Origin: Bolinopsis microptera
Lineage: Eukaryota > Ctenophora > Tentaculata > Lobata > Bolinopsidae
Length of the DNA stretch: 64,000 bases
Direction: 5' to 3'
Assembly: GCF_026151205.1 (NCBI RefSeq)
Contig: NC_087081.1
Coordinates: 1,989,246-2,053,245, forward strand
Under the pieces are notes generated by a model. That model worked only from the letters and a program-made list of their open reading frames with translations. It searched no databases and was not told where the DNA came from. Position numbers and translations under genes: made by a program. How positions within the stretch are numbered: position 1 is the stretch's first letter; each line of letters begins with the position of its first letter. Below are positions 39,593-43,684 of this stretch, in pieces.

Positions 39593-40342
39593 GACTTTTA
39601 GGACCTTAACTGATAGTTGAAATTCGACATATGACGTCATCTAGCGTCATCTAGCGTCATCAAGCGTGAAATATCGCCAGATGATGATAGATGATGATAG
39701 ATGACGCTAGATGACGCCAATTAGCGACATTGTCGCTAAGTGCACGGCACCTTTCGAATGTCGCTATCTAGCGCTATCTAGCGCTATCTAGCGCTATCTA
39801 GCGCTATATGACGCTATATGACGCTAGATGACGCTACATGACGCTAGATGACGCTAAGCACGCAACACTGACGCCAGGCGACAGATAGCGCTATTTTCAT
39901 AAAAATTCTAGGGACGACATCTAGCGTCATCTAGCGTCATATGTTGCCGCGACATCTGACGCTATCTGACGCCATCTAGCGATATCTGACGTCATCTGAC
40001 GACATCTGTCGCGACGACATCTGACGCAGGCGACATCAAGCGCTGGATAGCGGGATAAGTCAGTTTACGACAGTTTACGCTATCTAGCGCTATATAGCGC
40101 CAGATAGCGCTATATGGCGTCAGATGTTGTTGCGACATATAGCGCTAGATAGCGTTAGATAGCGCTAAATAGCGTTAGATAGCGCTAAATAGCGAAGAAT
40201 TTTGGGTCGTGACAGTCCAGGCTATTTAGCGCTAGATGTCGCTATCTAGCGCTATATGTCGCTGCGTCAGATGTCGTCGCTACATATATAGCACAAGATA
40301 TCATATCCTATCACAGTAACAGTAATCCTAACTCTGTGTGTT

Positions 40343-40541
40343 TGTGTGTGTGTGTGTGTGTGTGTGTGTGTGTGTGTGTGTGTGTGTGTGTGTGTGTGTG
40401 TGTGTGTGTGTGTGTGTGTGTGTGTGTGTGTGTGTGTGTGTGTGTGTGTGTGTGTGTGTGTGTGTGTGTGTGTGTGTGTGTGTGTGTGTGTGTGTGTGTG
40501 TGTGTGTGTGTGTGTGTGTGTGTGTGTGTGTGTGTGTGTGT
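40343..40541. repeat. (TG)n microsatellite, about 99 repeats
   Basis: Uninterrupted TG dinucleotide tract just inside the left array of the 4.08-kb element. All ORFs over it are artefacts of the repeat. Confidence 0.98.
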
Positions 40542-40781
40542 TTTACTGGGACCGTAAGCGCAGCCTGTCTTTTCCCACCCAATCTTTTTTGTTATTTTTA
40601 TTTTATATGAAAATTAATTTTTACTGTGTATGAAAATTAATTATAATTTAAGTGAGAATGCAAATGATATAACTATATAATATATAATAAGCTTGCGCGG
40701 CTCGTCGAAGTCACCCAACTATTACACTCGATTTATCAAATATTCGGCTGAGTGGAACAAAATATTAAATATCACTTAATC

Positions 40782-41770
40782 AAGGGGTCGTTTACATATT
40801 ATAATTATATAAAGGGCCTAATGCCGCCGGCCGGGGTTTTCCAAATTATTACGCTCGCTAGTTTACCTGGGGACCTCAGGCTATTATGTTCATAAACCGA
40901 ATAGAGATCGATTAGGCGGAATGACAGGCTGAGCGCGGCCCAGTAATCGCTAGTGTGATTGTGACATAATACTAATATAGCTTAATATAGGGGGTGCACG
41001 ATAAAAAATAAACTTGCTCGGATTTTAAAAATTTTTGTACCACTGTTTTCTAGAGACTGTGAGAATTTTCACAATACCAAATTTGTTATACCTTTTTGGA
41101 AAGATCAGTGAGTTTCGCCTATGTACTGTGCCATATTTGATGGTGCGCGGCTTTTGGAGCAAAAGTAGCTGTAAAACATAAAAGTCGCGTAATTTGACCA
41201 AATTCGTCCAAATTTGACCATTTTTATCGTATTATTCGGATTTATCTTCAGTTCCTTAAATGAGATCATTCTGGAAATTGGCGACGACCTTCCAATAGGG
41301 CTTTTACAACTGTCCGAAAAATTTGGTGGATATCGGAGTTGATATAGTGATCAAAATGGGGCAAAATACGCTGCTTTTAGCTGTAACATAATGTCTGATG
41401 GTTGGATATGCTTTAAATTTTTCGGACACTTTCCTTGTAAGTCTATGAGTAAGCTTACCAATTTTTGTTGCAATTGGAGGTCGGGAAGGATACTCAATAT
41501 CTATTTGTTTGAAGAAAATTGTGCTGGCCGAAATTAGCGCTAAAAAACCATCCTACAGTCGGCACGCGCGGCTCACTGTCGATGGCGCACTACCTACTTA
41601 ATAGCTATGTATGGAACTGATTACTAACAATGAGAGGTCGTTCACATACCCCGTAATCAGTTTTACCATATCTATTATATTTGTATATATAATAGCCTGA
41701 GGTCCCCAGGTAAACCCCAACCTCCTCAGCTGATTACGTAATACTAATATGTAAACGACCGTCGACCCTT
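40782..41770. mobile_element. Possible nested inverted-repeat element, about 1 kb
   Basis: Left end AAGGGGTCGTTTACATATTA is matched inverted at the right by GTAAACGACC with TAATATG next to it, and both sides then carry a TTACCTGGGGACC(T/C)CAGG stretch. No target duplication is clear, so the boundaries are tentative. Confidence 0.4.
40863..40946 (+). mobile_element. TTAC..GTAA mini-element
   Basis: 84 bp from TTACCTGGGGACCTCAGG through GGCGGAATGACAGGCTGAGC to GCGGCCCAGTAA. Confidence 0.65.
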
Positions 41771-41810
41771 AACATTTCGGGATCGGAAGAAAGCGGCACG
41801 TACTATTTCG

Positions 41811-41889
41811 TTACTGGGCCGCGCTCAGCCTGTCATTCCGCCAAATCTTTATTTGTTTATGAACATAATAGCCTGGGGTCCCCAGGTAA
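41811..41889 (-). mobile_element. TTAC..GTAA mini-element, best consensus copy
   Basis: 79 bp from TTACTGGGCCGCGCTCAGCC to TGGGGTCCCCAGGTAA. The palindromic GGGGTCCCC near one end and GGGCCGCGC near the other are both intact. Confidence 0.7.
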
Positions 41890-42690
41890 TATTTCGACGA
41901 AATTTATACAAGTTACAGCTCAGTGGTGCATTTCGCCGAAAAGCATTATTGGATACCGAGAAGCATTTTTGGATGCGCGGCGCGACACACTCACAGTAAC
42001 GCATCGCGTTGATTCACGATGTCAATCCTTCACTGTTCATGTTCACAGCTCGGTGAGGCCCAGTTATGGTGCATATCGCCAATTTAGTAACATAGTTGGT
42101 CAGTTCGTACAAAAATCGTAAAAAATTCGTACAGTTCGGCACGTTTTTTCAGTTTGGGATTATTTTGGGAAAAATTCGCCTCATAAATTTTCGAAATATA
42201 TAATAAAAAGCTAATTGCAAAAATTTGTGTTAAAATGGCGGGAAACGATGAAATGTAACCTCCCGGACAAAAATAACAAATTTTTCGGACTGAAGTGATT
42301 ACTTGTAATTGTAGCGCGATGCACTACTGGGTCGCGCGCGCATCAAATAATGCTTCTCGCAAGCAAATCGGCGAGATGCGAAGGATTGACATCGTCAATC
42401 AAGTGATTACTGATTAAAAAACAAAATTGTTAAAAAAAATTCGGTAAAAATTCCTCGACAGCTTTTTAAAATTTGTACAGTTCGATACCTTTTAAAAGTT
42501 CGTACATAAAGTAACGTACTGACCAAGTATGTTTAGTAAAGCACTAGTGGTTGCAAGAAGCATTATATTATTGGCTGCGCGGCGCGGCCCAGTAGTGCAT
42601 CGCGCTACAACAAAAATCGTCAATTAGATTACTCGAAGCTCAAAGCTGTAAAGTATTTATCCAAAATAATTCCGATCCCGATCCCGATTG

Positions 42691-42787
42691 TTACTGGGCC
42701 GCGCTCAGCCTGTCATTCCGCCAAATCTTTATTCGCCAAATCTTAATGTTTATGAACATGTACATAATAGCTTGGGTCCCCATGTAA
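42691..42787 (-). mobile_element. TTAC..GTAA mini-element with internal duplication
   Basis: 97 bp. The CGCCAAATCTTTATT block is duplicated inside and the right end is decayed (GGGTCCCCATGTAA). Confidence 0.6.
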
Positions 42788-42788
42788 G

Positions 42789-42869
42789 TTACTGGGCCGC
42801 GCTCAGCCTGTCATTCCGCCAAATCTATATATCTGTTAATGAACATAATAGCCTGGGGTCCTCAGGTAA
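42789..42869 (-). mobile_element. TTAC..GTAA mini-element, tandem neighbour
   Basis: 81 bp, one base after the preceding copy and in the same orientation; ends TGGGGTCCTCAGGTAA. Confidence 0.65.
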
Positions 42870-43684
42870 CAGGTAAGAGGATTGACATAACTTATAAATT
42901 TATAATATATTAATTGAAATTCTAAATACTGAATTCATCGCATTTTAAGGGTTTTGGTATTTTCGTAGCTAAATTGCACTAAAGCTTTCGCGCTTGCACT
43001 TCACACTTGCGCGTAGTTCGTAAACTGAAAACTCGTGGGTACGATATATGTGATTACTGAACAATAAATTCGGCTCGACTCTCATTACATTCTTTTGATA
43101 ACTTGCTGTGCGAGATTTCAATACTATTAATTAAGCCTATACCAGCCGGCAAAGTTTTTATATCTAGACAGATAGCGCTATCTAGCGCTATCTAGCGTAA
43201 ACTGTCACAAACCGACATTCTCCGCTAGATAGCGCCAGATAGCGCTAGTAAGCGCTAGATAGCGCTGCGTCAGATGTCGTTGCGACATATAGCGTTAGAT
43301 AGCGCTAGATACCGCTAGATGTCGCAAAAAAAAGGGCGGAAATTTTATGAAAATAGCGCTATCTGTCGCCTGGTGTCAGTGCTGCGTGCTTAGCGTCATC
43401 TAGCGTCATCTAGCGTCATCTAGCGTCATCTAGCGTCATATAGCGTCATATAGCGTCATATAGCGCTAGATAGCGCTAGATAGCGCTAGATAGCGCTAGA
43501 TAGCGACATTCGAAAGGTGCCGTGCACTTAGCGACAATGTCGCTAATTGGCGTCATCTAGCGTCATCTAGCGTCATCTAGCGTCATCTATCATCATCTGG
43601 CGATATTTCACGCTAGATGACGCTAGATGACGCTAGATGACGTCATATGTCGAATTTCAACTATCAGTAAAGGTCCGACTTTTA

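Follow-up and report, generated by a model that had tools for sequence, protein, structure and literature searches.

The 64,000-nucleotide window of the Bolinopsis microptera genome analysed here (the whole stretch, C10:1989246-2053245) contains at positions 39601-43676 a 4,076-bp DNA transposon with terminal inverted repeats (TIRs), which is a non-autonomous element of the foldback type, a structural class already known. Both of its ends carry arrays of CG-centred 10-bp words, and these arrays are not a product of chance. The element runs from the left terminus GGACCTTAACTGATAGTTG, beginning at 39601, to the right terminus CAACTATCAGTAAAGGTCC, ending at 43676, and GACTTTTA is duplicated directly outside both (39593-39600 and 43677-43684). 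A TIR transposon with an 8-bp duplication at exactly these borders had been proposed in an earlier sequence-only reading, which also described the outer parts as mirror images; both descriptions hold. The outer left arm (39601-39908, plus strand) mirrors the outer right arm (43339-43676, minus strand), with 97% identity between 39601-39717 and 43560-43676, 90% between 39625-39856 and 43411-43642, and 93% between 39762-39908 and 43339-43485. Inverted outer arms of about 300 bp at 90-97% identity correspond to the long TIRs of foldback elements, and the left 700 nucleotides, taken as single-stranded DNA, fold with a z-score of -15.9 relative to 20 shuffles. We consider it reasonably probable that the element as a whole is a non-autonomous cut-and-paste foldback copy of a recently active family, mobilised in trans, and that its arrays dock the transposase.

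The same ends are present in high copy number in the genome searched (264.65 Mb, 232 contigs). A GGACC end pattern of 19 places, allowing at most two mismatches, matches at 130 forward and 135 reverse sites (265 in total), whereas the same pattern read backwards matches at 6 and 7. The matches to this family, referred to here as A and ending in GGACC...GGTCC, are almost confined to contigs C1-C13, with few on C18, C103, and C186. The other copies have the GGACCTT ends, as the sequence-only reading required; among the 41 ends compared, only the left end of the window copy has A at position 8, the other 40 having T. From a list of 139 of the 265 ends (100 pattern places, two exact 30-base patterns, and fetched loci), 48 facing pairs spanning 206 bp to 13.8 kb were assembled, and 43 ends are unpaired. 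Thirty of the 48 pairs measure 3-5.5 kb and 13 are below 1.5 kb.

An 8-bp duplication flanks 19 of the 21 two-ended A copies read (18 exact, one with 7/8 matches), and all of the duplicated sequences differ. The remaining two copies sit with inverted flanks in composites with a larger element, B (see below), and those composites are duplicated themselves. Over A, B, and a further family, D, all 25 duplications are 8 bp long (24 exact, one 7/8), and no exact 7-, 9- or 10-bp flank match occurs in the 25 element rows. This count omits L010 and L018 (A), L049 and L052 (B), and the 3-kb search loci L042-L047, where the partner end was not seen, and enters the composite L048 as a B element only. The base adjoining the A ends is C in 65, T in 44, G in 18, and A in 7 of 134 exact ends, and the 25 duplications read start with a purine (position 1) in 19 cases and end with a pyrimidine (position 8) in 17.

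The element borders were verified at two other copies by uninterrupted repeats at their insertion points. The B element L050 holds an uninterrupted CATGATTC-TAAACGTGG, where the composites read CATGATTC-GGACC, and L018 holds GTCGGAAC-GGACC beside an intact GTCGGAAC-TGGAAATC; in both, the insertion starts exactly at GGACC. The smallest A copy with a confirmed duplication, L028, is 307 bp long, so that mobility requires little beyond the two ends. Over 330 bp and with gaps excluded, identity between A arms is 0.99 at the median and 0.96 at the lowest (378 pairs, 28 arms, 16 loci; without five short copies, L036, and the composites), which indicates that the family moved recently.

Arrays of CG-centred words at the element ends

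Each end of the window element begins with a short terminal segment, GGACCTTAACTGATAGTTGAAATT on the left (39601-39624, plus strand; T at position 8 in other ends) and GGACCTTTACTGATAGTTGAAATT, read on the minus strand, on the right (43653-43676). Inward of these lie the left array of about 640 bp (39625-40261, plus strand), with the half-sites TAGC, TGAC, and TGTC and phased CG runs of up to 10 units, and the right array of about 480 bp (43175-43652, minus strand), with phased CG runs of up to 12 units. Successive CGs lie exactly 10 bp apart in 44 of 63 steps in the left 700 bp and in 34 of 46 in the 560 bp taken from the right end inward. A CG is followed by another at +10 in 44 cases on the left and 34 on the right, compared with 1.5 and 0.7 at other lags; the corresponding values are 5 and 4.3 in the element core and 36 and 38.7 in the 47.7 kb of window outside the element. 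Autocorrelation over lags 1-40 exceeds 0.36 identity only at 10, 20, and 30, and additionally at 40 on the right; in the core it does so at no lag. Runs of three CGs spaced by 10 bp occur at 56 places in the four 500-bp end bins and at one place elsewhere in the window. The words had been described as 10-11 bp long; the arrays are real, but the lag analysis gives a period of 10.

Relative to 200 dinucleotide shuffles of the same 700- and 560-bp ends, individual words are strongly enriched: TAGCG occurs 23 times on the left and 16 on the right (shuffle means 3.4 and 2.9, maxima 10 and 8), TAGCGCTA 12 and 9 times (means 0.14 and 0.16, maxima 2 and 3), and GATGACGC/GCGTCATC 7 and 10 times (means 0.07 and 0.03, maxima 2 and 1). 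The further statement of the sequence-only reading that the words are often palindromic applies to TAGCGCTA but not to palindromes overall, as counts of 6-, 8-, 10-, and 12-base palindromes in the end arrays show no excess over shuffle maxima, and the 12-mer GATAGCGCTATC that it quoted occurs not at all in the left stretch and once in the right.

Single words mostly fall short of a full palindrome. Bases at equal distance from the CG pair in 28-33% of cases at position 1 (25% in the window outside), 37-45% at position 2 (24%), 70-74% at position 3 (26%), and 23-24% at position 4. A degenerate unit read by hand from the word counts, MTRRCGYYAK, can be compared with the automatic consensus MTRRCGMYAN on the left and MTAGCGYYAK on the right. 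Because MTRRCGYYAK is its own reverse complement, the array can be described as a strand-symmetric mix of half-sites, single units usually being hybrids of two of them.

Among family A copies, the arms differ mainly by whole 10-bp units, as is characteristic of the variable-number short tandem repeats of foldback elements; in 389 of 452 cases the gap between two arms measures a multiple of 10, a descriptive figure since the pairs share history. This pattern would also be expected if the arrays had no role in transposition and arose neutrally, as long inverted repeats underwent unit slippage and gap repair, and repeats of foldback arms can seed satellite DNA, as in Tetris (PMC4079207; papers are cited by PMC accession and for excerpts of their text). 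Slippage, however, explains homogeneous units, whereas the many different words here have mainly three features in common, the CG centre, T/A at -3/+4, and the phase, and families B and D have a similar build with other words. We regard this explanation as possible but doubtful.

A different reading of the CG centre is that the arrays bind a host CG-recognising protein, such as an architectural or silencing zinc finger, and serve chromatin opening or methylation-dependent control. Two C2H2 proteins of Mnemiopsis that are specific to ctenophores, CTEP1/2, bind a GC-rich motif that contains two CpGs and is unmethylated, and transposable elements have inserted abundantly in promoters at loops; the loop-anchor motifs of placozoans are located in Mutator TIRs (all PMC12221973, in the excerpted text). 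These parallels make the reading conceivable, and we judge it improbable.

The core between the arrays (40550-43160) has a GC content of 0.39 and is without 10-bp CG phasing or a recognised transposase; pieces of it are common to other long A copies at about 78-99%. At the inner edge of the left array lies a (TG)n microsatellite (40335-40541), and all 14 scanned copies of at least 3 kb, but none of five short copies, have a TG/CA tract at a distance of 0.6-1.2 kb from one end. Nested in the core is an 80-100-bp repeat, TTACTGGGCC...CCCAGGTAA, with relatives at about 42690-42788 and 42788-42869 and, inverted, at about 40863-40953. Since the 79-bp copy at 41811-41889 (TTACTGGG...CCCAGGTAA) has its own 7-bp duplication, TATTTCG, the nested repeat probably represents a different, separate miniature transposon family.

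Sibling families and composite elements

Reading outward from the inverted flanks of A at loci on C3 and C7 revealed the larger element B, with ends GGCAAGTTTCC...GGAAACTTGCC. Its outer arms of about 678 bp are 99.3-99.4% identical within a locus and 97.6-98.1% identical between the C3 and C7 loci, and the duplications at these two loci are CTAGATCC and CTAGAATG. L050 is a B element without family A inside and has the exact duplication AAAGTACG (end at 1051), and L051 is a 252-bp B miniature with the duplication TATAACAT. The ends of family D are also of the GGCAAGTTTCC type (GGCAAG); the D copy L053 has the duplication AATAATTC and long arms of AAGCGCTTATAAGCGCTT words. All six two-ended B and D elements read have exact 8-bp duplications. 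The pattern GGCAAGTTTCCATAAAT, allowing one mismatch, matches at 143 forward and 147 reverse sites (290 in total), compared with 2 and 1 in the control. Of these GGCAAG ends, 100 of 290 were listed, most ending in AAAC or AACT (named D and E), and gave 32 D/E pairs; the sequences read cover B and D copies. A start in GG is common to A (GGACC) and to B and D (GGCAAG), with one differing end, GACAAG in L048, which reads GTC.

The CG-centred words of B and D have a consensus close to TAANCGNTTW. A CG is followed by another at +10 in 15 cases in the B arm, 21 in L050, and 14 in each of the two D arms, compared with 2.8, 4.8, 3.7, and 3.3 at other lags. The build of B and D, more weakly phased, resembles that of A while the words differ, and the CG centre and the spacing may therefore matter more than the letters.

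Three B insertions contain family A sequence inside B: C3:10320410-10327214, C7:707994-721155, and C10:3613372-3619068 (L037-L041, L029, L030, and L048), each a whole unit with its own 8-bp duplication. In the C3 and C7 composites, both A ends face outward into mirrored, near-identical B arms. In the third composite, L048, which has the duplication ATTTGTAC, the right side holds two right ends of A, and the left B arm passes into an A array lacking a terminus. At the B ends L042, L046, and L047, a GGACC end is present 660-680 bp further on, behind AACATGATTC. Simple insertion of A into B would give direct flanks, and the flanks here are inverted. We infer that A inserted at CATGATTC in one of the B arms and that the junction was carried across by conversion between the two inverted arms. 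The duplications at the outer ends suggest that the composite then moved as one unit. The C7 locus contains exactly 2,500 N in its right arm (positions 9076-11575 in the joined coordinates of L029/L030), which represent an assembly gap or a withheld stretch.

Transposase search and proposed mechanism

Open reading frames of at least 110 aa were listed for 20 copies and part-copies, as well as for the C7 locus, L036, L037, and the B/D loci; frames below about 60-120 aa lie outside these lists. Comparison of ten selected frames with Pfam identified a retrotransposon in L022 and a seven-transmembrane (7TM) receptor frame about 8 kb beyond the single end of L018, the rest being below the cut-off. 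L037 contains a frame that is reverse-transcriptase-like by eye. Four large copies were considered as autonomous and rejected. L022 (8.4 kb) owes its length to a nested non-LTR (long terminal repeat) retrotransposon (RVT_1 plus endonuclease), L036 (9.5 kb) has nothing above the cut-off, and the 11.8-kb C7 "pair" is the palindromic B composite with its 2,500 N. The C5 copy (13.8 kb) lacks a transposase match in its unique middle, where weak matches to Fibrinogen_BP and T4_Cef (E-values down to 1.2e-4, under the curated cut-offs) are probably due to repeats. In this stretch and in L036, Pfam scans in six frames likewise gave no transposase. The autonomous relative with a DDE transposase that the sequence-only reading proposed to look for was not found in the copies read or the listed pairs.

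In the window itself, three open frames have no Pfam match, and neither Rfam (gathering threshold) nor ARAGORN (bacterial code) gives a match. Two tandem repeats also lie in the window: one with a 33-bp unit, GTGTTGCTCTGAACCAGGCATGAAGTAAGCCTG, repeated about 253 times at 52189-60541 (96% matches, leaving repetitive open frames that reach 1,278 aa), and one with a 108-bp unit repeated about 45 times at 2211-6975 (96%).

Genome-wide, 58 Merlin, 88 Mutator-like element (MULE), and 150 hAT domain matches were scored, the last among 365 candidates, and none of these starts inside the 48 A and 32 D/E pairs, a test limited to the listed ends (139 of 265 for A, 100 of 290 for GGCAAG). Three superfamilies, hAT, Merlin, and P, had been named in the sequence-only reading as makers of 8-bp duplications. 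The hAT duplication consensus is nTnnnnAn, a target pattern that is absent here: in 25 left flanks, position 2 is A in 13, T in 7, G in 3, and C in 2, and position 7 is T in 10, A in 9, G in 4, and C in 2. Every scored hAT match starts outside the tested pairs. The P-type catalytic domain (PF21787) has no match in the genome, and neither has the KDZ domain (PF18758), both searches having been run without a positive control.

Of the three superfamilies, Merlin fits in its GG ends and 8 bp, but no transposase was found inside a copy. Merlin elements (IS1595-like transposase) have TIRs starting in GG and 8- or 9-bp duplications according to the excerpts of PMC8101967, and A, B, and D share GG...CC ends and 8 bp. 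Several of the 58 Merlin-domain (DDE_Tnp_IS1595) matches lie in open frames of about 320 aa. One such repeat (L031 754-2202 and L032, 99.7% identical over 1,449 bp) encodes a Merlin-type transposase frame of 320 aa; by eye, it starts GGCAGTTTACAAG, followed by a GGTCCATGGACC-like palindrome array, and this start, GGCAGTTTAC with palindromic words around GGTCCATGGACC, resembles the GGCAAGTTTCC ends. Against a foldback form of Merlin, no Merlin match starts inside a tested pair, the match nearest to a listed A end being 19 kb off; the L031/L032 unit has no inverted right end, no duplication at its shared boundaries, and one CG only at its left end; and our literature search found no paper joining Merlin with foldback vocabulary. 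On this evidence, membership of Merlin is plausible, though we would not wager on it.

The alternative assignment, to the Mutator superfamily as a Phantom- or Muta-like foldback, takes the arrays for the subterminal tandem repeats usual in such elements. In animal MULEs, long TIRs that carry subterminal tandem repeats of 9-15 bp are common (PMC5225508), foldbacks are said to belong mostly to Mutator (PMC4079207), and MULE duplications measure 8-11 bp (PMC6446971), each in the excerpted text; the 8 bp observed here lies in that range, with no 9-bp case among the 25 read. Family A has the short subterminal tandem repeats in long TIRs that characterise MULEs, and 88 MULE domain matches are present in the genome. 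The Aedes families, however, make both 8- and 9-bp duplications (PMC5225508), whereas all 25 here are 8 bp, and no MULE match starts inside a tested A or D/E pair. The match nearest to a listed A end (C12:15188344) lies 1,050 bp outside the GGACC end at C12:15187294. We regard the Mutator assignment as a doubtful possibility, Merlin being slightly more likely.

In the mechanism that we favour, a DDE transposase acting in trans, with a Merlin-like enzyme as first guess and a MULE-like enzyme as second, would mobilise the element. The transposase would contact the short terminal segment and cleave at GG...CC, and several subunits may load on the CG-centred half-sites, whose 10-bp spacing places them on almost one face of the helix. 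With weak sites recurring dozens of times at both ends in a strand-symmetric arrangement, specificity and end pairing could derive from avidity and not from one strong site. Slippage or gap repair would add or remove units with the phase kept. The arrays are, on this account, probably multi-site transposase docks, as the sequence-only reading had suggested in calling them possible transposase-binding platforms, and in line with the proposal, in the excerpts of PMC3688188, that multi-site transposase binding explains the long repeat ends of Galileo.

Several observations weigh against multi-site docking. An array-binding transposase is an assumption, no transposase-like frame was recognised in the A copies or the B/D loci read, and a 10-bp array could persist through unit slippage alone, in the absence of selection. 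A spacing of exactly 10.0 bp is slightly below one turn of B-DNA, so that over long runs the face gradually shifts around the helix. Single words, as noted, are for the most part not palindromic. The 10-bp phasing in B and D is much looser than that of family A, and the contrast between array and core is weak in D, since a stretch of the D core itself has mildly raised CG at +10 (8 compared with 3.8). The sole Merlin end read in the genome has a single CG and no CG-centred array. Finally, the Galileo precedent is narrow because extra THAP sites occur in only two of four repeats in one subfamily: the site protected by the THAP domain lies at +63 to +80, matches in those repeats are bound as well, and the other subfamilies have no significant THAP-site matches (PMC3688188, in the excerpted text).

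A more specific version of the docking mechanism would have an ordered, helically phased transposase multimer on the CG-centred half-site arrays, with phase and CpG (hence methylation) and not the letters setting end recognition. Families A, B, and D would then be lineages with changed words and a kept frame, and the A-in-B composites would be arm conversions making one mobile unit. We think this unlikely in its entirety. Why foldback transposons keep hundreds of bases of end repeats is an open question, and sibling families that share a CG centre and, variably, 10-bp spacing but not letters offer a natural experiment on the constraints acting on such arrays.

Comparison with known foldback and Merlin elements

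Family A and its array design are undescribed in the literature searched, a comparison that lies outside Repbase and Dfam; no ctenophore description of them appears among the papers listed, and the families reported here add high-copy elements to this phylum. Sea urchin TU elements are foldbacks with a tandem-repeat outer TIR domain and 8-bp duplications, but their repeat unit is 15 bp. Galileo, of the P superfamily of Drosophila, makes 7-bp duplications. It resembles family A in having repeat-bearing TIRs (0.5-1.2 kb) of which only the outermost part is conserved (PMC3688188, excerpts), and differs in having long direct repeats in place of 10-bp words; no P-type catalytic domain was found here, in a search without a positive control.

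The sequence-only reading recognised no described family. As to kind, this does not stand, as the anatomy is that of a foldback and animal MULE foldbacks with short TIR words have been published. Muta1 of Aedes aegypti is an active MULE called a type 2 foldback, and 10 of 12 Aedes long-TIR families have 9-15-bp repeats, with 8- or 9-bp duplications. Like family A, Muta/Phantom elements have foldback TIRs with a short terminal motif followed by variable-number subterminal repeats, 8-bp duplications, and many non-autonomous derivatives. Muta1 itself has nine 12-bp repeats with 3-4-bp spacers in 145-bp TIRs and makes 8- and 9-bp duplications (all from excerpts of PMC5225508), whereas family A has about 480-640 bp of degenerate CG-centred 10-bp words, 8-bp duplications only, and copies in which, as read, no transposase was found.

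The remaining systems share other parts of this anatomy, each as described in excerpts of the source cited. Tetris/DAIBAM of Drosophila virilis is likewise a non-autonomous foldback with tandem repeats in its TIRs and no known autonomous copy, but has a repeat unit of about 220 bp and 8-10-bp duplications (PMC4079207). Tm1 of root-knot nematodes has composite TIRs made largely of tandem 13-15-bp repeats that vary in number, and differs in its asymmetric terminal motifs, mostly 9-bp duplications, and members with a putative transposase (PMC3169594). Merlin, which is present in ctenophore genomes, has GG ends and 8- or 9-bp duplications as family A does; its TIRs measure 24-462 bp, the excerpts of PMC8101967 do not mention word arrays, and no Merlin transposase was found in the window-type elements, whose ends are built of the CG-centred 10-bp words described here.

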